This document shows positions 17,040 through 29,888 of a DNA stretch of 32,250 nucleotides, piece after piece. Source of the DNA: an uncultured Lachnospiraceae bacterium. GTDB taxonomy: Bacteria > Bacillota > Clostridia > Lachnospirales > Lachnospiraceae. The stretch spans positions 1-32,250 of the forward strand of contig ONBW01000024.1 in the NCBI GenBank assembly GCA_900316165.1. Direction: 5' to 3'. A model generated the notes under the pieces. The model did not search any database, was not told the DNA's origin, and saw nothing but the letters and a program-made list of their open reading frames with translations. The position numbers and the translations under genes are program-made. Every line of letters starts with the position of its first letter. The first letter of the stretch is position 1.

Positions 17040-18386
17040 ATGAGTTTCGAAGAAGAGTACAAACAGAAACTTACTACTGCTGACGAGGCTGTTAAGTGCG
17101 TCAGAAGCGGTGACTGGGTTGACTACGGCTGGTGCGTTGGCACTCCGGAGGCCCTTGATAAGGCTCTTGCAAAGAGAGCTGATGAGCTTGTAGATGTAAA
17201 TGTCAGAGGCGGAATCCTTTTCCATGTTCCTTATATCATGCAGGTTCCTGACGCTGAGAAGCATTTTTCATATAATTCATGGCACATGAGTGGTGTCGAG
17301 AGAAAAATGCTGACAACCACTAACGCTTACTTTGCTCCTATCAAGTATTCTGAGCTTCCTAGCTATTACAGAATAAACAACGCTACTCCTTCGAGAGTCG
17401 TTATGATTCAGGTCGCACCGATGGACAAGCACGGTTATTTTTCTTTCGGTCCATCTGCCTCCCACCTCGGCGCTGTCTGCGAGAAGGCTGAGGAGATCAT
17501 TGTCGAGGTAAATAAAAATATGCCTCGCTGCCTTGGCGGTCATGAGTCTGAGATTCACATCTCAAAGGTTAGCGCCATCGTTGAGGGTGACAATCCTCCA
17601 CTTGGCGAGATGCCTGCCGGCGGTCCTGCTTCTGATGTCGACAAGAAGGTCGCTCAGCTGATCGTTGACGAAATTCCTAACGGTGCCTGCCTCCAGCTCG
17701 GTATCGGCGGCATGCCAAATGCCGTTGGTTCTCTTATCGCTGAGTCAGACCTCAAGGACCTTTCAGTTCACACCGAGATGTATGTCGACGCCTTCGTTGA
17801 TCTCGCTATGGCTGGCAAAATCAACGGTTCCAAGAAGAATATCGACCGTTATCGTCAGGTTTATGCCTTCGGTGCCGGCACCAAGAAGCTCTATGATTAT
17901 CTCGACGACAACCCGGAGTGTATGAGCGCTCCTGTTGATTACACCAACGATGTAAGAGTCATTTCCCAGATTGATAATTTCATGTCTATAAACAACGCTA
18001 TCGACATCGACCTCTATGGTCAGGTAAACGGTGAGTCCGCTGGTACCCGCCAGATCTCTGGTGCAGGCGGTCAGCAGGATTTCGTTCAGGGCGCTTACCT
18101 CTCAAACGGCGGCAAGAGCTTCATCTGCATGTCTTCTACCTTCACTGATAAGAAGGGCCTTGTTCACAGCCGTATCCGTCCTACCCTTGCTGAGGGTTCT
18201 ATCGTTACTGATACCCGTCCGCAGACTATGTATGTAGTTACCGAGTACGGTAAAGTAAATCTCAAGGGACTTTCCGCCTGGGAGAGAGCTGAGGCTTTAA
18301 TCTCTATCGCTCATCCTGACTTCCGTGACCAGCTGATAAAGGATGCAGAGAAGCTTCGTATGTGGAGAACTTCAAACAAGAGATAA
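17040..18386 (+). CDS. but: Butyryl-CoA:acetate CoA-transferase
   Basis: Moves CoA from butyryl-CoA to acetate, releasing butyrate and acetyl-CoA; the final step of butyrate formation in many gut Lachnospiraceae. The 448-residue length and segments such as [41 protein letters not shown] and [19 protein letters not shown] agree closely with the Roseburia-type But. The likely catalytic glutamate is E246 in HTEMYVDAF, and [10 protein letters not shown] (221-230) is the CoA-binding loop region. Separation from the related 4-hydroxybutyrate CoA-transferases rests on this overall likeness. Codons are strongly biased, as for an abundant protein. A strong AAGGAGG lies upstream and a hairpin terminator follows. 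The thl-hbd-crt-bcd genes are not in the window. Confidence 0.92.
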
Positions 18387-20810: not shown

Positions 20811-21944
20811 TTATGCAAGACATGGCTTGTTCCACAGATTAAGTGAAATTCCGAGCCCTTTCTCTACTGCCTTGTCATAGCAGATTTTGCCCCATGCAAC
20901 ATCCTCTACAGGCATACCACCAACCGAGTAAACGATTATTTCATCATCACTCTTACGCTTCTGAGCTTTTCCAAGAAGTATATCACCCATATCATCTATC
21001 TGATTCTCTGTGATTATTCCGTCATGAACCATATCTGTAAACTTAGAACCAATAATGTCTATCGATCCAAATGTAGGATAAGGATATTCTTCAGCCCATG
21101 CATGATATAACCCCATGCTGTCTACTACAAGACGCGCCTTTTTCGCCAGAAAATCAGTTTCCATATTGATTCCCGATGGTGCAACCAGAAGTGCTCCTGG
21201 CTTTACCCACTCACCCTTAACCATCTCGTAAGAGTTAACATCCTGACCAGTCGAAGCCGTAAATGTCATTACATCTGTTCCACGTACCATCTCCTCTAAA
21301 TCTTTGCAGACCGTAATCTTCTTAAACTGCGGATAATTTTTCTTAGCATATTCGATAAGACTATCTATAGATTTCCGGCTCCGGCCCTTGATCTTCAATG
21401 TATCGAGTGAAGGGCAGGCCGAAACGAATGCATCAAGTGCAGTCTTTCCCATTACTCCCGGGCCGAATATTCCACAAACCTTAGCACCTTTCCTTATCAA
21501 GTGGCGCACTCCAACTCCCTGCACCGCTCCTGTTCTATATGCACTTTCCAAATTACCTGACATCAGCACCTTTGGGGCTCCGGTGGTTTTATCATTAAGC
21601 ATAATCATTAAGATTGAACGTGGCAGGCCAAGCTTTTTATTTTCCATATTTGAACCATACCACTTGACTCCTGCCATATCGAAACTCCCACCGATATACG
21701 CTGGCATCGCCATAAAACGCCTTGCCTCCGCGGCAATTGGCATATTAGGAAATTGTGACGTCTTTGGGAATGTAACCATAGTTCCATGAGACATATGGTT
21801 TTCTCCACCCATCATGAAATCGCCAACAGCGAGGCATTTAAGCACTTCTTCCATTGCATCGATACATGCATCCATATCGCGCACACCGGCCTCTATCATG
21901 TCCTGCTCAGATAAATATAAAAAATCTATTTTCGGATAAGTCAT
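20811..21944 (-). CDS. Ornithine cyclodeaminase/mu-crystallin family protein
   Basis: A 377-residue NAD(P)-binding protein of the OCD/mu-crystallin family. The Rossmann segment is GIFGPGVMGKTALDAF near 160-175. Upstream are the family active-site features GVKWYGSNMENKKLGLP (lysine) and SAYRTGAVQGVGVRHL (RTG arginine), and downstream VDSMGLYHAW. Members deaminate ornithine to proline, reduce cyclic imines or act as alanine/opine dehydrogenases, so the reaction cannot be named from sequence. From memory, some databases label similar proteins tyramine oxidase subunit B; I give that little weight. It is the last gene of the pot unit, 13 bases after the Fe-ADH, with AAGGAG before its ATG. An amine- or imine-processing role fits the context. 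Confidence 0.8.
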   Translation of the reverse strand: MTYPKIDFLYLSEQDMIEAGVRDMDACIDAMEEVLKCLAVGDFMMGGENHMSHGTMVTFPKTSQFPNMPIAAEARRFMAMPAYIGGSFDMAGVKWYGSNMENKKLGLPRSILMIMLNDKTTGAPKVLMSGNLESAYRTGAVQGVGVRHLIRKGAKVCGIFGPGVMGKTALDAFVSACPSLDTLKIKGRSRKSIDSLIEYAKKNYPQFKKITVCKDLEEMVRGTDVMTFTASTGQDVNSYEMVKGEWVKPGALLVAPSGINMETDFLAKKARLVVDSMGLYHAWAEEYPYPTFGSIDIIGSKFTDMVHDGIITENQIDDMGDILLGKAQKRKSDDEIIVYSVGGMPVEDVAWGKICYDKAVEKGLGISLNLWNKPCLA

Positions 21945-21957
21945 TTAACTACTCCTT

Positions 21958-23124
21958 TTACTCACATGATTTATAAATATCAATGATGTCTTCTTTCGTC
22001 AGATTCACAAGACACCCATCAAGTCCATCGGTAAGCGCCACCTCGGCCATCTTGTCAAAATGCTCCTCTGATGTGATTCCAAGGTCTTTTAATTTGAGTC
22101 CCAGGCCTAAACTCTTAAAGAATTCCTCTGTCTTATCAATGGCTCTTTCTGCTGTTTCAACTATATCGTTCCCCATAGTTATTCCAAATACATTGACGCC
22201 GTATGTCGCAATAGTCGGTGCACTCTTTTCATTTAAAATATGTCGTAGAAGCTCAGGAATAACGACCGCAAGTCCATGACCATGAGTAACATCATACCAG
22301 GCTGAAAGCTGATGTTCTATTGCATGTGCTGGCCAAGGGCCAAGTTTTCCGCTGCAAATAAATCCATTTATCGCCCATTCCGATGCCCACAGAAGATTCG
22401 CACGAGCATCATAATCACTCGGATTCTTCAAAGCCTTCGGTCCTTCCTGAACCATGGTTTTCATAAGTCCCTCCATTATTCTGTCTTGGATTTCAGTCCC
22501 CGGGATTGGTGCAAAATAGACCTCCATAATGTGTGAAAACATATCGACCGTCCCACATGCTGTCTGATATGGAGATACCGAAAATGTAAGCTGAGGATCA
22601 AGAAGTGCATACATCGGATAGAGATTTTCGTTAGCTATCTCTTTCTTAAGCTTTTTCTCTTGATTAGTAATAACCGAGAAATAATCCATTTCAGAACCAG
22701 TAGCTGCCATTGTAGGGACTGCGATAATAGGAAGAGCTTTCTTTACACGGCTGTTATCCTCTATAAGCTCCCATGCATCACCATCATAGCAGGCCCCCGC
22801 TGCAACTGCCTTGGCACAATCTATCGTACTTCCACCTCCGATAGGAATAACTACATCAATGCCTTGGGTTTTGCATATCTCAACTCCATCTCTTACAGTT
22901 GTGATTCTTGGGTTGGCATCTACTCCTGAAAGCTCTTCGTACGCTATTTCTGCGTCGCTCAGCATACCAGTTATTCTGTCATACAGACCATTTTTTTTAA
23001 TACTTCCCTTACCATATACGAGAAGAGCTTTTGAACCGCACTCCTTTACGCAATCCGTCAAATGATTCACCGCATCTTTTCCAAAATAAATTTTTGTCGG
23101 TATTGAATAATAAAAATCCTGCAT
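21958..23124 (-). CDS. Iron-containing alcohol dehydrogenase (YqhD/BDH type)
   Basis: A 388-residue group III alcohol dehydrogenase that would reduce an aldehyde, probably with NADPH, or oxidise the alcohol. The nucleotide motif PIGGGSTIDCAKAVA is at 94-108. The four metal ligands are in place: D194 and H198 in GTVDMFSHI, H267 in WPAHAIEH, and H281 in DVTHGHG. This spacing equals that of E. coli YqhD and clostridial butanol dehydrogenases as I recall them. AAGGAGG precedes the ATG. The 78-base gap after potA2 contains a 9-bp inverted repeat (23171-23179 with 23200-23208). In this operon it may handle an aldehyde formed from an imported amine; the substrate is unknown. Confidence 0.9.
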   Translation of the reverse strand: MQDFYYSIPTKIYFGKDAVNHLTDCVKECGSKALLVYGKGSIKKNGLYDRITGMLSDAEIAYEELSGVDANPRITTVRDGVEICKTQGIDVVIPIGGGSTIDCAKAVAAGACYDGDAWELIEDNSRVKKALPIIAVPTMAATGSEMDYFSVITNQEKKLKKEIANENLYPMYALLDPQLTFSVSPYQTACGTVDMFSHIMEVYFAPIPGTEIQDRIMEGLMKTMVQEGPKALKNPSDYDARANLLWASEWAINGFICSGKLGPWPAHAIEHQLSAWYDVTHGHGLAVVIPELLRHILNEKSAPTIATYGVNVFGITMGNDIVETAERAIDKTEEFFKSLGLGLKLKDLGITSEEHFDKMAEVALTDGLDGCLVNLTKEDIIDIYKSCE

Positions 23125-23170: not shown

Positions 23171-23208
23171 ATATGATAATTCTGTCTATAGAGATTTATT
23201 TATCATAT
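23171..23208 (-). repeat. Stem-loop between potA2 and Fe-ADH
   Basis: ATATGATAA (23171-23179) and TTATCATAT (23200-23208) form a 9-bp A/T-rich stem with a 20-base loop that covers the potA2 stop codon. There is no T tract. It could be an mRNA processing or stability element. Confidence 0.35.
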
Positions 23209-24324
23209 CTTCTCTGGAAACTTGACCATTCCCGTCATCTTCGCAACATCTCCAACAGGGTTTTTCATAACAATAGCATACTTTGGATTCCAGAAGAGAT
23301 GAACAATCTGATTCAATTTCGGAAGTCCTCTTCCTCCAAGTCGTGAGACTCTTACCCTTCGCCCGTTTCTTAACATAACAACTGCAGTCACAAGCGAACC
23401 TGTATAAATAAAATCAGTCACATGTCCATGAAGATGAAATCCAGGGACTTTTTCTTCAGACCATTGAACTCTGTGTGGTCTTATCGACACATTTACAAAT
23501 TCGTCCTTTTCAAATGAAAAACCGGTAGCAAGGAAATCACCCGATTCGCATAGAATACGTATAGCATCACCTTTTGGGTCTCCGACCATTCCATCGAATT
23601 CATTCGTTTCTCCAATAAAATCAGATACAAAAGCAGTTTTGGGGTTCTTATATAATTCCTGTGGAATGCCCTGCTGTTCTATATGACCACCCTGCAGAAC
23701 CACGATTTTATCACTCATTATCATCGCTTCTTCCTGGTCATGCGTAACATATATGAATGTTATTCCTAACTGCTGTTGTATTTCACGAAGTTTGTAACGC
23801 ATATCTTTTCTAAGTTTCATGTCAAGAGCTGTAAGTGGCTCATCAAGGAGCAGAACAGAAGGATGTGTAACTATCGCTCTAGCAATTGCAACTCTCTGTT
23901 TCTGCCCGCCTGACATCTGAGAAGGCATTCTCTCCTCAAAGCCCTCAAGTGAAACAATCTTAAGCGCTTCTTTAACGGCCTCTTGTATTTTACTGCGTCC
24001 AACATGTTCCGCTTTAAGTCCGTATGCTATATTGTCATAAACATTCATGTGCGGAAAAAGTGAATAATGCTGAAATACCGTATGTACATTGCGTTTCTCC
24101 GGAGGCAGCTTTATTATACTCACTCCATCAAGTCTTATATCTCCTCCGTCCAGGGTCTCGAATCCCGCAATCATCCTCAACAGCGTTGTCTTGCCGCATC
24201 CTGATGGTCCAAGAAATGAGACGAATTCTCCTTTTTCTACAGAAAAGTTAATGTGATCGACGACGTGGTTGTCACCGTATGATTTATCAAGATCGATAAG
24301 TTCAATTGCACCTTTTTTCTCCAT
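23203..24324 (-). CDS. Spermidine/putrescine-type ABC transporter ATPase, second copy
   Basis: A PotA-family ATPase of 373 residues from ATG 24322-24324 (AAGGG upstream; a GTG at 24331-24333 would add three residues). It has Walker A GPSGCGKTTLLR, Q-loop VFQHYSLFPH, signature MSGGQKQRVAIARA, Walker B VLLLDEPLTALD, H-loop YVTHDQEEAM and a C-terminal TOBE-like region (about 270-373). It is the second PotA-type ATPase in the operon, clearly related to but not identical with potA1. It could form a mixed or alternative ATPase with potA1, or serve permeases encoded elsewhere. It begins about 40 bases after the PII gene. Confidence 0.9.
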   Translation of the reverse strand: MEKKGAIELIDLDKSYGDNHVVDHINFSVEKGEFVSFLGPSGCGKTTLLRMIAGFETLDGGDIRLDGVSIIKLPPEKRNVHTVFQHYSLFPHMNVYDNIAYGLKAEHVGRSKIQEAVKEALKIVSLEGFEERMPSQMSGGQKQRVAIARAIVTHPSVLLLDEPLTALDMKLRKDMRYKLREIQQQLGITFIYVTHDQEEAMIMSDKIVVLQGGHIEQQGIPQELYKNPKTAFVSDFIGETNEFDGMVGDPKGDAIRILCESGDFLATGFSFEKDEFVNVSIRPHRVQWSEEKVPGFHLHGHVTDFIYTGSLVTAVVMLRNGRRVRVSRLGGRGLPKLNQIVHLFWNPKYAIVMKNPVGDVAKMTGMVKFPEKI

Positions 24325-24362
24325 GGATATCACACCCTTACCTTCAGATCTGCTTAATACAC

Positions 24363-24710
24363 TTATATAGCTTTATTACCGCGCTGTCCTGTTCTTATTC
24401 TCATTACATCTTCAACAGGCGTGATAAATACCTTGCCATCTCCGACAGTGCCTGTAGACAAATTTTCCTCTATAAGTGCAAGCAGATCCTCCACCTGCTT
24501 ATCCTTTACTACTACCTCTGCTTTAATCTTAGGTATAAGGTTCATAGTAGCTGTCTTTACACCCATCTGAGTGTCTTCTCCAGTGACACCGCTTTGATTG
24601 CCACATCCCATTGCAGAAGTTACGGTAATTCCTCCTACGGAAAATTCATTCAAGATAAGTTTTAATTTTTCCAGTTTATCCGGGCGAATTATCATTTCTA
24701 TTTTTTTCAT
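24363..24710 (-). CDS. PII-family signalling protein in polyamine transporter operon
   Basis: A 115-residue PII (GlnB/GlnK-like) trimeric sensor. The N-terminal MKKIEMIIRPDKLEKLK, the B-loop TGTVGDGKVFI (near 86-96; GDGK at 90-93) and the C-loop RIRTGQRG near 104-111 indicate intact ATP/ADP binding. The T-loop (about 36-57, GCGNQSGVTGEDTQMG) is three residues longer than in E. coli GlnB, has no tyrosine and so no uridylylation site. ATG at 24708-24710 overlaps the potA1 stop (ATGA), with AAGGAG inside potA1, so production is tied to the transporter. There is no amtB, glnA or nif gene nearby. It resembles the Firmicutes PotN-type PII proteins that I recall as linked to Pot transporters. Target and effector are not shown by sequence. 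Confidence 0.9.
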   Translation of the reverse strand: MKKIEMIIRPDKLEKLKLILNEFSVGGITVTSAMGCGNQSGVTGEDTQMGVKTATMNLIPKIKAEVVVKDKQVEDLLALIEENLSTGTVGDGKVFITPVEDVMRIRTGQRGNKAI

Positions 24711-25723
24711 GACACCATATCTCCTTCCTCCTGTATCACCTGACTATTATCAGGATCCCAGGTCATAAAAACATTGTCTCCGACATGCCATTCACTATCC
24801 ACACTGTCAAGTGCAACTGCTTTCAAACCATTTTGTTCAACAAGTTCTATACGCTGATATACACCAAGATATGTAACCTTCGTAATTCTTGCAGGAATAG
24901 CTATTCCTTCCGGCCTGTCTTTCTTAAGTATTAAAAATTCTGGTCTTAAAGATACAACTCTTCCATCAGAAAGATTTTCCGTATCTCCTGAAAAGAAATT
25001 AGATTCACCCAGAAAAGATGCAACGAACCTTGAAGAAGGATGAAGATAAATATCGTTTCCCTCTCCAATCTGTTCTATATGCCCGCCATTTAATACCACA
25101 ATACGGTCGCTGATTGTAAGCGCCTCTTCCTGATCATGAGTGACATAAATATATGTTATGCCCGAAGCCTTCTGCATATCCTTAAGCTCCATCTGCATCT
25201 GTTTTCTAAGCTTAAGGTCAAGTGCACCAAGTGGCTCATCCAAAAGCAGAACCTTCGGTTCACATACAAGACTTCTTGCGATTGCAACCCTTTGCTGCTG
25301 ACCTCCGGAAAGTTTCGATGGTTTCCTGTTTGCAAAAGCTTCAAGATTTGTCATCTCTAGAACTGCGTTTACTTTTTCTACAATCTTCTCTTCAGGAACC
25401 TTCTTCATCTTTAAGCTGAATTCTACATTCTCACGAACAGTAAGATGAGGAAAAAGTGCATAGCTCTGAAATACCGTATTCACATTTCTCTTATTTGGTG
25501 GAACAGATACCTGATCTTCCCCATCAATAAGAACGCTCCCACTGTCAGGCTTTTCAAAGCCGTTTATCATACGAAGAAGAGTAGTCTTACCACATCCTGA
25601 CGGTCCAAGCAATGTAAGGAATTCTCCCTGCCTGACATCCAGACTTATCCCGTCTATAACCTTCTGATTTCTAAAGCTTTTTTCAATATTCTGAAGTGAT
25701 ACCTGTATTCTTTCTTCAATCAT
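24707..25723 (-). CDS. potA: Spermidine/putrescine ABC transporter ATPase PotA
   Basis: Energises import through PotB/PotC. The 338 residues contain Walker A GPSGCGKTTLLR, Q-loop VFQSYALFPH, signature LSGGQQQRVAIARS, Walker B VLLLDEPLGALD, H-loop YVTHDQEEAL and a C-terminal TOBE_2 domain (about 270-335). ATG at 25721-25723 follows AAGGAGG, four bases after the potC stop. Because it directly adjoins the permease genes, it is the more likely partner of this transporter; its stop overlaps the PII start. Confidence 0.93.
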   Translation of the reverse strand: MIEERIQVSLQNIEKSFRNQKVIDGISLDVRQGEFLTLLGPSGCGKTTLLRMINGFEKPDSGSVLIDGEDQVSVPPNKRNVNTVFQSYALFPHLTVRENVEFSLKMKKVPEEKIVEKVNAVLEMTNLEAFANRKPSKLSGGQQQRVAIARSLVCEPKVLLLDEPLGALDLKLRKQMQMELKDMQKASGITYIYVTHDQEEALTISDRIVVLNGGHIEQIGEGNDIYLHPSSRFVASFLGESNFFSGDTENLSDGRVVSLRPEFLILKKDRPEGIAIPARITKVTYLGVYQRIELVEQNGLKAVALDSVDSEWHVGDNVFMTWDPDNSQVIQEEGDMVS

Positions 25724-25727
25724 AGAA

Positions 25728-26510
25728 TCAATCCTCCTTCGAAAGCATGTTGGATATCAGTATTGCCGCTAACGAAATAATAAATATCAACGATGATATT
25801 GCATTTACTTCAGGTGTAATACCATTCCTAGTCATACCCCAAATCTGGATTGGAAGGGTTGAGAATATTCCGTTTAAGAAATATGTTACAGGAATCTCAT
25901 CCATTGAAAGTGTAAATGAAAGAAGCGCCGAACTTATGATAGCTGTCTGTATATTCGGAAGTACCACATGAAAAAATGTCTGCGAGCTTGTGGCTCCAAG
26001 ATCCTCCGCTGCTTCAATGATATTCCCATCTAACTGCTGAAGCCTTGAATATACCTGAGGAAGGACTGTCGCTATAAGAAATGTTGAATGACCTAAAATA
26101 ACAGCCATCATTCCCTGGTGTATTCCAACTGCCTGATAGAATGTCAGGAGAGCTACACCTGTTAGAATTCCCGGAAGAATTAGCGGAAGCATGACAAGCT
26201 TATTCATGAAGCTTTTCCCTGGAAAATCAAACCTATACATTCCATAACCACCAGTAACACCCAGTACACAGGCCACACCTGTACTTATTCCAGCAATTAC
26301 AAGTGAATGCTCTAACGAACGTATAAGATCATCGTCAGCAGCCATCTTCGCAAACCATTTAAAAGAAGCGCCCCTCATCGGGAAATAATTAACTGAATCT
26401 GCGTTAAATGCATATAATACAACGACAATGATCGGAATATACATGAAAAGAAGGATGAGAATTCCGATTACCGTCAGTACTCCGGTTGATAAATGTTTTC
26501 TTTTAATCAT
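25728..26510 (-). CDS. potC: Spermidine/putrescine-type ABC permease PotC
   Basis: A 260-residue inner-membrane permease with about six hydrophobic helices and the EAA-type loop EAAEDLGATSSQTFFHVVLPNIQTAI, typical of the ABC binding-protein-dependent family. The N-terminal helix and the FNADSVNYFPMRGASFKWFAK segment are PotC-like. ATG at 26508-26510 has AAGGAG eight bases upstream; a GTG at 26517-26519 is too close to that site. It follows potB by 16 bases. Confidence 0.92.
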   Translation of the reverse strand: MIKRKHLSTGVLTVIGILILLFMYIPIIVVVLYAFNADSVNYFPMRGASFKWFAKMAADDDLIRSLEHSLVIAGISTGVACVLGVTGGYGMYRFDFPGKSFMNKLVMLPLILPGILTGVALLTFYQAVGIHQGMMAVILGHSTFLIATVLPQVYSRLQQLDGNIIEAAEDLGATSSQTFFHVVLPNIQTAIISSALLSFTLSMDEIPVTYFLNGIFSTLPIQIWGMTRNGITPEVNAISSLIFIISLAAILISNMLSKED

Positions 26511-26526
26511 AAATCTCACTCCTTAT

Positions 26527-27414
26527 TTATCCGTTTAGATTTGCATAATGTTTTTCTATCTTTCCCGTTATCTCCATCAAAACAATAACAAATACAAGAA
26601 TAATCATTCCCATTGCCGCGCCATAAGGCCAGTTATCCGATGTACCGAACTGCATCTGAACAATGTTTGCTATCTTGGTCGATGATGTAGTTCCTCCCAG
26701 AAGTGATGGTGCAAGGAAATCTCCCATGGAAAGTGCAAAAGCATATGTCGCTCCTGTCACTATTCCTGGTAAGGAAAGCGGAATTATTATTTTTCCAAGC
26801 GTTCTTGCACCACCACACCCCAGGTCTCTCGATGCTTCAATAAGGCTATGTGGAATCTGTTCAAGCGACGTATATATAGGCATCATCACATAAGGAGTAT
26901 AGATATGCACCATTGCGATAATTACTGAGGCGTCACTGTACAGGAAAATGTCAAGAGGTTTGCTTGTAACCCCCAGCCAGATAAGGAATGAATTTAGTAT
27001 TCCATTGGTCCCCAGTATTATTTTCCACGCATAGGCTCTCATAATATAACTGACCCAGAGCGGAATAATAGTCATCATGTAAAGTATCTTCTTCGACCTG
27101 GCTTTTTTTACTGCATAAATAATAAAGTATGCCAATGGAAAACTTATTATTATCGCAATAACCGTAACAATAAGCGACGTTCTCAATGTCTGTAACAGTA
27201 TCATAACATGTCCAGAACCTGAAGAGTCTCCTGCAAAGAATCGGATATAATTGTTCAGCGTGAACGTCTTCTCTACCTTAAATGCTCCGTTTTTCCAGAA
27301 GCTGTACAAAAACAGATTGAAATACGGAATAACAAGGAAAACAATAAGCCAGATACATGATGGGGCAAGTATTCCGTATCTTAAAAAATGAAACATTTTT
27401 CTTTTCGTGCTCAA
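26527..27414 (-). CDS. potB: Spermidine/putrescine-type ABC permease PotB
   Basis: Partner permease, about 295 residues with six membrane segments, the SFWKNG-like periplasmic loop after the first helix and the EAA loop EASRDLGCGGARTLGKIIIPLSLPGI. I prefer TTG at 27412-27414, eight bases after GAGG. GTG at 27421-27423 (298 residues) is the alternative, and the first ATG, six codons into the TTG form, lacks a site. It follows potD by about 70 bases. Confidence 0.9.
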   Translation of the reverse strand: MSTKRKMFHFLRYGILAPSCIWLIVFLVIPYFNLFLYSFWKNGAFKVEKTFTLNNYIRFFAGDSSGSGHVMILLQTLRTSLIVTVIAIIISFPLAYFIIYAVKKARSKKILYMMTIIPLWVSYIMRAYAWKIILGTNGILNSFLIWLGVTSKPLDIFLYSDASVIIAMVHIYTPYVMMPIYTSLEQIPHSLIEASRDLGCGGARTLGKIIIPLSLPGIVTGATYAFALSMGDFLAPSLLGGTTSSTKIANIVQMQFGTSDNWPYGAAMGMIILVFVIVLMEITGKIEKHYANLNG

Positions 27415-27487
27415 GATGACCACCTCTTATCTGTTGCTTTCATAGCAGATTGGAATCTGTTACTTTTTTCAATTCCGAATCTATATA

Positions 27488-28600
27488 TCAGGTTCCTGAC
27501 TTAACCGATACCCAGATGTCATTGTACTGATCACGGTTCTTAACATATTGCCAGAAGTTAATCTTTGAAAAGAACTCATCAAGTGAATCTGCATTAGTCG
27601 TAGCAATCAGGTCGTCATCCATATAATCAAGAGCTTTTGGATTGACAACAGTATAATATGTTGCAGCAGAGCTTAATGCCTGGCCTTCAGGACTAGTTAC
27701 ATAATTGATCCACTTATATGCTGCATCTACATGCTTAGCTCCTTTAACTATCATGAGACGATCCATCCAACCGGTGCAACCTTCCTTTGGAATAGTCCAC
27801 TTAAGATTTCTTCCCTGATCATTTACATTCTTAACTGTTATAGGCCAACCTACAGCCACGTCTACTTCCTTGTTTGCGAAGAGATCTGTAAGTTCTCCGG
27901 CTGTCGTCCAGTATTTTCTGACGCTGCCATTTATCTTGCTAAGCTTCTCCTTCGCATCTTCAAGCTGATCAGTCGACATATTGTAAATAGCTGAAGGATC
28001 ATCCTTGTCCAAGCCTTCCATCTGTCCAATCATGTAGATATTACTTATATCATCATATAGACTTATTCTTCCAGAATACTTAGGATCCCAGAAAATATCC
28101 CATGATGTCGGCTCCTCTTTTACAACATCTGCATCATATATCAGATAATCAGGGCCCCATAGATATGGGCATCCATAGGTCTTTCCATCCTTTTCCACAT
28201 CAGAAAGCTTGACACTATCGCTTATGTCACTCCAGTTCTCAAGCTTATTTAAATCAAGGGGTTCTGCCATGTCATTTTGTACTATATATCCGGCCATATC
28301 ACCAGACGGTGAAATAACATCGTATGTGTCTCCTCCTCCGGCCTTAAGTTTAGCCGCCAGGTCATCACTGGTGTTGAAATAAGTGGCATTTACTTTTATT
28401 CCTGTCTTTTTCTCAAACTTATCTGCAAAAGATGAGTCAGCGTAGCCTTCCCATGTGAGAAGATTTACAACCTTGTCTCCACCAGATTTGCTTGAAGATC
28501 CTGAAGCACTATTCTGTGACGATGAACCGCATCCGGCCATTGATATGGCGAGGGAAAACGCAGTTACTGCAACTATAAGTCTTTTTCTAATCTTTTTCAT
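27488..28600 (-). CDS. potD: Polyamine-type extracellular solute-binding lipoprotein PotD
   Basis: First gene of the transporter unit. The 370-residue protein has a lipoprotein signal (basic start, hydrophobic run, SMAGC with C24 as the lipid anchor) and a Ser-rich tether. The mature part is a PotD/PotF-type binding protein: LLTWEGYADSSFADKFEKKTG at 47-67, TYDVISPSGD, WGPDYLIYD and WDIFWDPKYSGRI. ATG at 28598-28600 follows AGGAGG at eight bases. Ligand specificity (spermidine, putrescine or another amine) cannot be read with confidence. Regulation looks complex; see the leader features between 28741 and 28846. Confidence 0.92.
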   Translation of the reverse strand: MKKIRKRLIVAVTAFSLAISMAGCGSSSQNSASGSSSKSGGDKVVNLLTWEGYADSSFADKFEKKTGIKVNATYFNTSDDLAAKLKAGGGDTYDVISPSGDMAGYIVQNDMAEPLDLNKLENWSDISDSVKLSDVEKDGKTYGCPYLWGPDYLIYDADVVKEEPTSWDIFWDPKYSGRISLYDDISNIYMIGQMEGLDKDDPSAIYNMSTDQLEDAKEKLSKINGSVRKYWTTAGELTDLFANKEVDVAVGWPITVKNVNDQGRNLKWTIPKEGCTGWMDRLMIVKGAKHVDAAYKWINYVTSPEGQALSSAATYYTVVNPKALDYMDDDLIATTNADSLDEFFSKINFWQYVKNRDQYNDIWVSVKSGT

Positions 28601-28740
28601 AAGTCGTTCCTCCTTACACCGTAATAATCATTCTCACCAGTTACCTTTTTTTCTCAAATCGCAGATTATAAAGTCAATTCGCCTGAATCCCTACCCACCA
28701 TGTATGCTGATCAGCCATGTCCTTTGCGTAATTGATAAAA

Positions 28741-28774
28741 AAGGCGCTTATCGGATAATTCCGATAAACGCCTT
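28741..28774 (-). terminator. Intrinsic terminator in the potD leader (candidate attenuator)
   Basis: AAGGCG-C-TTATCGG (28741-28754) pairs with CCGATAA-A-CGCCTT (28761-28774), giving 13 pairs with one mismatch and a six-base loop. On the minus strand it runs into TTTTTTATC. It lies about 35 bases after the predicted potD transcription start and 140 bases before the potD ATG, so it would stop potD transcripts unless countered. On the plus strand the tail TGTCTTTTTT is poorer but not excluded. Confidence 0.75.
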
Positions 28775-28815
28775 TGTCTTTTTTATATTTAATTCTGCCT
28801 GATTTGATTATAAAT

Positions 28816-28846
28816 AATCTACATCTTATACATACTATAATGTCAA
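28816..28846 (-). promoter_or_regulatory. potD promoter with 19-bp spacer and MerR-type dyad
   Basis: On the minus strand TTGACA (28841-28846) and TAGATT (28816-28821) are 19 bases apart. The inverted repeat TTATA-CATAC-TATAA (28826-28840) lies inside the spacer. A long spacer with a dyad is the layout that MerR/BmrR proteins untwist on activation. Start would be near 28808. Confidence 0.55.
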
Positions 28847-28940: not shown

Positions 28941-29048
28941 TACCTCGATATTTAGATTATAGTTGGTATAAAGTTTTTGCTTACCAGACTTCTTATATCG
29001 TATATAAAAGTTTATGTAAGCCATAGCAATGCAGGAGGCGGTGAAATT

Positions 29049-29888
29049 ATGAATCTCAGAAAATTATCTATCGGCGAAATGGCGTCCTTGAATCATATAT
29101 CTAAACAGGCATTAAGATTATATGACAAGATGGGACTTCTGTCTCCCATTGAGATAAATGATAAAACCGGTTATAGGTACTATTCTATCGGACAGTCAGC
29201 AACCCTCGATATGATACAGTATTATAAAGAAATCGGCTTCTCACTGAATGACATCAAAGAACGGCTTAATGAAATGAATCTGAACACAATGCCTGAAGTC
29301 CTTCAAGAACGCTACGAATACAGCGAACGAGAAATGAAGAAGCTCAAAATCAATCAAACCGCAATTCTCAGGAGCATAGACAGCTTCAACAGATACATGA
29401 GTTTGCCGCAGATTGGCACAATATTCTACGAATATATTCCTGAACGATCCATCTACGTTTACAATACCGGCGCAGATTTCTTCTCATATTCTTATTATGA
29501 GTACGAATACTATCTGAGAATGTTCAAGGATCATCTAGAGGAAAATGGTTTCCCAACAACTTATTTTGCAAATGTCGGCACTATAGTAAGAAGCAGATAT
29601 TTTAACGAGGGATATCCAGAGCTTCACAGTGATGAGGTTTTCGTATTCATTGACAATAACATTAATATCAAGCTGCCTGTCGAGACAATTCCAGCCGGAA
29701 CCTATATATCAATGTGTTGCGATGTATTTGAAGAAGAAAAAGATTACGCTATAAAACTATTCGCCGAAATGCGTAAAAACAATCTCAGGCCTCTCGGTGA
29801 CTATTTCTGTGAGGTCGTAACAGAATACCCTGACGGTGAAAACGGACAGCGAAAGATATTCTATAAGATGCAGGTAAGGATTAAATAA
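29049..29888 (+). CDS. MerR-family transcriptional activator with BmrR-like effector domain
   Basis: A 279-residue regulator. Residues 5-75 are the MerR winged helix (LSIGEMASLNHISKQALRLYDKMGLLSP, then GYRYYS); 80-115 form the dimerisation coiled coil; 125-279 resemble the GyrI-like multidrug-binding domain of BmrR, rich in Tyr and Phe and so suited to hydrophobic or cationic ligands. ATG at 29049-29051 is chosen because AGGAGG lies upstream (about ten bases); an earlier in-frame ATG at 28977 has no site. It is divergent from the pot unit and is the natural candidate for its activator. Direct control is inference from the 19-bp spacer promoter. The ligand is not known. Confidence 0.88.
   Translation: MNLRKLSIGEMASLNHISKQALRLYDKMGLLSPIEINDKTGYRYYSIGQSATLDMIQYYKEIGFSLNDIKERLNEMNLNTMPEVLQERYEYSEREMKKLKINQTAILRSIDSFNRYMSLPQIGTIFYEYIPERSIYVYNTGADFFSYSYYEYEYYLRMFKDHLEENGFPTTYFANVGTIVRSRYFNEGYPELHSDEVFVFIDNNINIKLPVETIPAGTYISMCCDVFEEEKDYAIKLFAEMRKNNLRPLGDYFCEVVTEYPDGENGQRKIFYKMQVRIK

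Follow-up and report, generated by a model that had tools for sequence, protein, structure and literature searches.

A PotN-subfamily PII protein between two PotA ATPases in a conserved transporter operon, with the second ATPase as its probable partner

Overview

The window (the whole stretch of DNA analysed, 32,250 nucleotides of contig ONBW01000024.1 from an uncultured Lachnospiraceae bacterium) carries an operon in which a PII protein, by its sequence a member of the PotN subfamily, is placed between two PotA ATPases. Sequence comparison assigns the PotN type of C-terminal regulatory domain to the second ATPase, PotA2, and not to PotA1, the one to which the PII gene is coupled. The PotN kind of PII is already published; the novelty therefore lies in the conserved two-ATPase operon, whose order MerR-potDBCA1-PII-potA2 looks new, and in the assignment of the sensor to the second ATPase. 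No title describing PotN with two PotA ATPases was found among the open-access matches listed, and an earlier description could still stand in the 2022 FEBS J paper on PotN (10.1111/febs.16431). We favour, with somewhat better than even confidence, a model of a MerR-activated amine importer in which one PotBC would be served by two ATPases and a PotN-PotA2 module would be gated by the energy state.

Organization of the operon

The operon runs potD-potB-potC-potA1-PII-potA2 behind a divergent MerR gene. The genes of the locus, including two downstream metabolic genes, are as follows.

29049..29888, plus strand: MerR-family regulator, divergent (Pfam MerR_1, 46.9 bits); the ATG at 29049 is preferred over the listed TTG at 28977
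27488..28600, minus strand: potD-like substrate-binding protein (SBP_bac_8, 140.7 bits; best NCBIfam YdcS, 137.7 bits, cut-off 725)
26527..27423, minus strand: potB-like permease whose type was seen in 4 sampled genomes only (184.8 bits with the PotB model, cut-off 348)
25728..26519, minus strand: potC-like permease (PotC model, 201 bits, cut-off 326)
24707..25723, minus strand: potA1, ATPase whose C-terminal domain is of the PII-less type (TIGR01187, 361 bits, cut-off 355.6)
24363..24710, minus strand: PotN-subfamily PII, 115 aa (Pfam P-II, 88.3 bits, cut-off 25)
23203..24324, minus strand: potA2, ATPase of 373 aa with a PotN-type C-terminal regulatory domain and a flexible tail (TIGR01187, 354.4, just under 355.6)
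21958..23124, minus strand: iron-containing alcohol dehydrogenase, YqhD-like (Fe-ADH, 175.5 bits; PRK15138, 269 bits, below the cut-off of 645)
20811..21944, minus strand: ornithine cyclodeaminase/mu-crystallin family enzyme, PRK06199 subfamily (536 bits, cut-off 362)

The PII gene extends from an ATG to a TAA (24710..24363, minus strand), and its ATG overlaps the potA1 stop codon as ATGA, with AAGGAGA nine nucleotides upstream of the PII start. This overlap is peculiar to the window genome, since in L004, L050 and L192 potA1 and PII are separated by gaps of 28, 20 and 18 nt. The likely start of potA2 is the ATG at 24324, which has AAGGTAAGGG upstream, and not the GTG at 24333 of the open-reading-frame list. 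The coordinates and the overlap agree with the earlier note, which had described a complete PII gene coupled to potA1 and followed by a second PotA. It had also placed no ammonium or glutamine gene nearby, and indeed Pfam detects none in the nine open reading frames around PII, the MerR gene, or 16 further window frames (E up to 1e-10; two of the 16 have no match at all). The remaining window genes are ordinary and include galactose metabolism, NAD kinase, isoprenoid, exonuclease, family-53 glycosidase and pullulanase-like protein genes. Near the amine operon, on the opposite strand, lies a butyryl-CoA:acetate CoA-transferase gene (17040-18386, plus strand; score 853 against a curated cut-off of 674.8).

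The PII protein

The best PDB match of the window PII is 7O4X (1.2e-28), which according to the reference list of PMC9692440 is PotN of Lentilactobacillus hilgardii. In an 84-row PII tree, 41 Pot-linked PIIs cluster with the L. hilgardii PotN in a single 42-member group (ultrafast bootstrap 100, SH-aLRT 89), inside which none of the AmtB-linked PIIs falls. Both the PDB match and the tree bear out the earlier suggestion of a PotN-type PII, and the proposed phylogeny thus separates this protein from ordinary nitrogen GlnK proteins. The sample behind the tree consists of 15 named genome loci and the results of a search of 397 family genomes, from which the surroundings of the best matches were fetched; a PII match at 1e-20 occurs in 151 of the 397. 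The tree was built without the partial PII of L010 and the PII of L192 (61% to the window's), and L092 was omitted as a copy of L004. The label AmtB-linked was given by resemblance to residues 1-430 of L089, and five of five neighbours so checked are ammonium transporters by Pfam. The PII gene lies immediately 5' of a PotA gene in 39 of the 41 Pot-linked loci, L061 and L082 being the exceptions. PotN of L. hilgardii is reportedly encoded in linkage with polyamine-transporter genes, and is said to bind ATP and ADP and to sense the energy state.

The family features are present in the window protein, namely the P-II profile and the conserved B- and C-loops (GDGK, RIRTG), and residues G90-K93, R104, R106 and T107 are invariant across 19 aligned PII rows, in keeping with the intact ATP-binding loops reported before. 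Glutamine Q39 and the T-loop lysine (K61 in the window) are likewise kept in all 19 rows, so that binding of 2-oxoglutarate is possible. The T-loop had been described as three residues longer than usual and lacking the uridylylation tyrosine. Its segment is indeed 23 residues long, where 31 of 33 AmtB-linked PIIs have 20, and the column of GlnB Tyr51 holds a Q. A tyrosine occupies this column in 28 of the 33 AmtB-adjacent proteins, in none of 37 PotN-operon proteins and in one of three two-ATPase rows; that one is L004, the closest relative, which has the two-ATPase arrangement and yet keeps the tyrosine. The missing Tyr51 says little and marks no special loss, because no GlnD was found by Pfam PF08335 in the window genome, which is 91% complete (the same search was positive in 3 of 14 control genomes).

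Other PII proteins are encoded in the same genome. An unusual one (L090:5651-10605, contig C52) is flanked by an APC amino-acid permease and a cyclodeaminase-family enzyme (58% to that of the window), and the PII at L190:1044-4001 (G407) is placed alike; in L090 two proteins follow, one small and one large, each matching parts of sarcosine oxidase alpha. The PIIs of L090 and L190 form, with that of L091, a PII group of their own (100/100) without the usual YRG motif of the T-loop, and perhaps a PII of the L090/L190 group controls an APC permease. An ammonium transporter with a C-terminal PII fusion is encoded at L089:7589-9349 (window genome, contig C48) and at L106:5400-7178, both by Pfam. 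Many further PII matches in the family lie in open frames of about 570-660 codons that resemble such fusions, which Pfam confirmed in L089 and L106.

Two ATPases with different regulatory domains

PotA1 and PotA2 fall in different clades, and a tandem or recent duplication of potA is not supported. In a tree of 54 PotA rows the PotA2 proteins lie inside a clade of 32 rows with the PotAs of PotN operons (bootstrap 91, which is below the usual 95; SH-aLRT 92), and on all 80 rows this clade comprises 45 rows (SH-aLRT 95). It is shared by the PotAs of the 38 single-ATPase PotN operons, all of which are in the 80-row tree and 25 in the 54-row tree. The smaller tree leaves out 26 of the 80 rows, namely near-copies and a number of long-branch or truncated rows. 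Five long PII-less PotA rows of 525-544 aa were represented by their first 365 residues; one of them, L167, is in the smaller tree. The four PotA1s form a clade of their own (100/98) outside the PotN-linked clade. The PotN-linked clade also contains two PII-less PotAs (L172, L173), so that clade membership does not guarantee a PII.

The C-terminal domains were scored over 125 columns by leave-one-out log-odds between PotN-operon PotAs (38 rows) and PII-less PotAs (31 rows; the background omits the two of the 33 PII-less PotAs inside the PotN-linked clade, which score +31 and +37). The five PotA2-type rows score +100, +127, +136, +102 and +110, and four of the five are thus a little below the PotN-operon range of 128 to 278. 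The four PotA1s score -111 (window), -120, -176 and -134, within the PII-less range of -331 to -22. When the tail columns are removed the signs are the same (PotA2 type +68 to +105, PotA1 -101 to -55). The NBD scores of both kinds of ATPase are near the middle (PotA2 type -18 to +36, PotA1 -38 to -1, with reference ranges of 48 to 237 for PotN operons and -264 to 7 for PII-less PotAs, so that the PotA2 type is below the first and partly inside the second), and it is therefore reasoned that the signal sits in the regulatory domain. In PMC9692440, as far as its available text goes, a purified C-terminal domain of L. hilgardii PotA, PotAc, is named beside PotN.

A C-terminal tail is present in PotA2 and absent in PotA1. 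In the AlphaFold model of PotA2 (mean pLDDT 87.8) the tail residues 358-373 are under pLDDT 50, and two strands at 254-267 have no counterpart in the model of the window PotA1 (mean 90.7). Walker A, signature, Walker B and switch histidine are intact in four of four PotA1s and in all five PotA2-type rows, and hence neither ATPase is a dead half. Elsewhere in the family, the PII-less pot operons L152, L156, L160, L163 and L167 encode the PotAs of 525-544 aa; in L156 and L163 the ATPase and TOBE regions end near residue 325 and are followed by about 200 further C-terminal residues without a Pfam family.

Conservation and spread of the operon

The PotB type of the window (E at most 1e-60) is rare, occurring in 3 of 397 family genomes (G000, G017, G151), 3 of 392 order genomes (G000, G017, G489) and 1 of 391 class genomes (G000), in samples that overlap. 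A PII and a second PotA are present in all four genomes with this PotB type. The complete order is found on one contig in G017 (L050) and in G489 (L192), the latter of another family. In G151 the operon is divided between the contigs L188 and L092, and its continuity is for that reason an inference. The gene-order check proposed earlier thus came out in favour of conservation, the order MerR-potDBCA1-PII-potA2 being kept in four genomes of two families, with that qualification for G151. The PotA1 and PotA2 subtrees show matching splits. L010 is likely a fifth case, in which a contig edge falls inside the PII gene and the PotA belongs to the PotA2 clade. Its partial PII (L010:2-250) has an in-frame stop in the T-loop and may therefore be broken or misread; the adjoining PotA2 keeps its ATPase motifs.

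Among 13 genomes of the genus, a PII more than 50% identical occurs only in G000, and G397 has a 48-49% identical PII in the order PotD-PII-PotA-PotB-PotC. The usual order in the family is PII-PotA-PotB-PotC-PotD, with variants in which PotD precedes PII or PII is last. The patchy spread of the two-ATPase operon suggests horizontal transfer. In G489, phage terminase genes (Terminase_3, Terminase_2; L192:352-2038) are found at a distance of about 6 kb from the operon, a position that fits such transfer.

Promoter and leader

Long spacers are typical of promoters activated by MerR proteins. Relatives of the window MerR are found in the same place in L050 (41%), L188 of G151 (69%) and L192 of G489 (44%). 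Two features are predicted between the MerR and potD genes of the window.

28816..28846, minus strand: predicted MerR-type promoter for potD (TTGACA, a 19-nt spacer with TTATA-N5-TATAAG, and TAGATT)
28740..28775, minus strand: leader hairpin with a U-run between the promoter and potD, a possible attenuator

All four two-ATPase operons have the divergent MerR gene and, before potD, TTGAC-N-TTATA-N5-TATARG, in which a 19-nt spacer leads to a -10-like hexamer. The pattern TTGACNTTATANNNNNTATARG, which was drawn from the same four operons, matches exactly once per genome in the four operon genomes, before potD, and has no exact match in the five other genomes searched. Tolerating one mismatch adds two matches at other places, and a reversed control gives 6 against 6 in the nine genomes; the number of matches alone therefore proves nothing, and the case consists of four exact matches at the same place.

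A hairpin followed by a U-run stands between promoter and potD in all four operons. Compared with shuffles, the folding of 86-101 nt leader pieces gives z values of -6.2 (window), -5.0 (L050), -2.9 (L192) and -5.8 (L188). A simple terminator scan does not list the window hairpin, perhaps as part of the U-run pairs inside the stem, and Rfam finds nothing near cut-off in the window and L192 leaders (the best weak matches are trpB, 29.1 of 59, in the window and GibS, 27.3 of 115, in L192). The terminator kept in four of four leaders is a lead pointing to possible attenuation rather than a demonstration of it.

Amine-catabolic neighbours and the substrate

An amine-catabolic relative lies within about 5 kb at 30 of 41 PotN-type loci; the corresponding figures are 0 of 33 for PII-less pot loci and 2 of 38 for loci with other PIIs. 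The comparison leans toward PotN loci because the reference proteins came from these, and the PII-less loci mostly span 11 kb against 18 kb. The neighbours at PotN-type loci are putrescine aminotransferase (14), aldehyde dehydrogenase (11), the cyclodeaminase family (10), Fe-ADH (8), GABA aminotransferase (6) and agmatine deiminase (2). Relatives of the window Fe-ADH (43-47% identity) are found at the PotN loci L174, L175 and L189, and relatives of its cyclodeaminase (61-65%) downstream of the PotN operons L055, L058, L062, L063, L068 and L069. The earlier note had seen novelty in the two-ATPase arrangement together with its downstream metabolic genes. The arrangement is indeed unusual, but the metabolic genes add no novelty, as genes of this kind commonly flank PotN loci.

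The L050 operon contains a putrescine aminotransferase and an agmatine deiminase, the latter over both its curated cut-offs. The aminotransferases of L050 and L056 score 667 and 687, over one putrescine aminotransferase cut-off (612), and 469 and 494, under another (659). As to regulators, a LuxR-type gene is near 15 of the 41 PotN-type loci and a MerR-type gene near two, both of them two-ATPase loci. The window PotB, PotC and PotD score below the curated polyamine equivalog cut-offs; the substrate would, by association only, be a polyamine-like amine.

A proposed mechanism and its alternatives

It is proposed that MerR activates the operon and that its importer takes up a polyamine-like amine, a single pair of permeases, PotB and PotC, being served by two catalytically complete ATPases. 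PotA1, with an ordinary C-terminal domain, would be the free engine. PotA2, with the regulatory domain of the PotN-linked PotA clade, would be the PII-gated engine, the two forming alternative dimers or a mixed dimer. The PII would read the ATP/ADP state, and possibly 2-oxoglutarate, and its T-loop would bind the C-terminal domain of PotA2; PotN is said to bind PotAc, the C-terminal domain of PotA. The sign of the control is probably inhibitory, with PII restraining PotA2-driven uptake at low energy. The transporter had been named before as the likely target of PII; this is supported, and the C-terminal domain and the clade point to PotA2 as the likely partner. A more specific version appeals to us as a tentative picture, for which we claim somewhat less than even chances: a two-speed importer with a plug-in regulated engine, a PotN/ATPase pair like those of PotN operons that would have become fixed behind a complete importer, in which PotA1 dimers would be always on and PotA2 dimers energy-gated, or a heterodimer half-gated, under the MerR promoter and the leader terminator.

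Several other readings of the locus were weighed. PII could act on its coupled neighbour PotA1, or on both ATPases alike, and we regard this as unlikely. The ATGA overlap in the window genome would favour PotA1 as the target, and cyanobacterial PII binding to NrtC and NrtD, according to the available text of PMC6603209, offers a precedent for both. Against PotA1 stand the gaps that replace the overlap in the three relatives, the PII-less score of the PotA1 C-terminal domains and the two strands that the PotA1 model lacks. It is also rather improbable that PII and PotA2 are a foreign pair energising another permease while PotA1 alone drives PotBC. PotN-linked PotAs do normally go with another type of PotB (28-39% to that of the window, 33 loci), and the search for convergence of PotA1 and PotA2 toward one permease gave no clear signal (2 shared columns against 2, 1, 0 and 0 in four control sets). 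A comparison of coupling helices (EAA) was dropped when our own search expression matched none of 19 PotB/PotC proteins. Contig C73 of the window genome carries another Pot-like set, with the closest ATPase (52%) and the closest permease (26%) outside the operon, but there the two adjoin each other (a further ATPase, with 46% identity, is on contig C74). Moreover, no PotB of the PotN-operon type was found at 1e-50 in the window genome, 12 of 14 candidates having been scored, and PII and PotA2 stay in the operon in four genomes of two families (in G151 by inference).

That PotA2 is what remains of a PotN operon, decaying and functionless here, we consider very unlikely: the PotB, PotC and PotD that usually accompany it are absent, its NBD scores below those of PotN operons and the PII of L010 has an in-frame stop, but the ATPase motifs are intact in all five copies of the PotA2 clade, which is kept across two families. 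Least credible, to the point of being nearly negligible, is an ordinary GlnK/GlnB nitrogen regulator placed in the pot operon by chance. The PII fold, the nucleotide loops and the Q39 and K61 of the 2-oxoglutarate site are what such a protein would show; the grouping with PotN and 40 other Pot-linked PIIs, and not with AmtB-linked ones, rules out an ordinary GlnK, and the genome has two other PIIs, one of them fused to an ammonium transporter.

If the preferred reading, with PotA2 as the partner of PII, is true, the same permease would work with a PII-gated and an ungated ATPase in one cell, a natural comparison that would allow a direct test of how PII stops an ABC importer. Through the analysis the PotN subfamily also gains many members in and around Lachnospiraceae and is tied to amine catabolism.

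Comparison with known systems

The published PotN operon of L. hilgardii reportedly has a single PotA. The window PII shares with the PotN of that organism (7O4X) the PII clade (100/89), the absence of Tyr51 and the conserved loops of the ATP site, and differs in its place, with a complete potDBCA1 ahead of it, a second PotA behind it and a MerR gene in front of the operon. In the PotN operons of Lachnospiraceae (for example, L049 and L068) a PotA of the PotA2 clade likewise comes straight after the PII, with cyclodeaminase-family, ADH, ALDH or aminotransferase neighbours, but these operons encode one ATPase and the other type of PotB.

The closest solved relative of PotA2 is in PDB 8ZX1 (5.5e-89), the E. 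coli PotABC-PotD complex. There too PotA consists of an NBD and a regulatory domain, the second domain being called regulatory and proposed to sense spermidine (PMC11414716). In contrast to the window, the E. coli system has one type of PotA, its control is proposed to be via spermidine, and the available text of that article does not mention PII.

The window operon can be likened to the NrtC/NrtD pair of cyanobacteria, as an analogy of arrangement that claims no membership. NrtABCD is also a two-ATPase ABC importer in which one ATPase has an essential regulatory C-terminal domain and which is under PII control; unlike the window system, it imports nitrate, the locus tag of its PII (Ssl0707) is far from those of nrt (Sll1450-1453), and PII binds both ATPases. 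According to the available text of the same article (PMC6603209), the PII of Synechocystis interacts with both NrtC and NrtD, the transporter no longer responds to ammonium once the regulatory domain of NrtC is truncated, PII-ADP is favoured by the authors as the inhibiting form, and how PII stops NrtABCD still awaits a structural and functional explanation. It is from the Nrt precedent, together with the regulatory domain of E. coli PotA, that the present locus is read as one permease with a free and a PII-gated engine.
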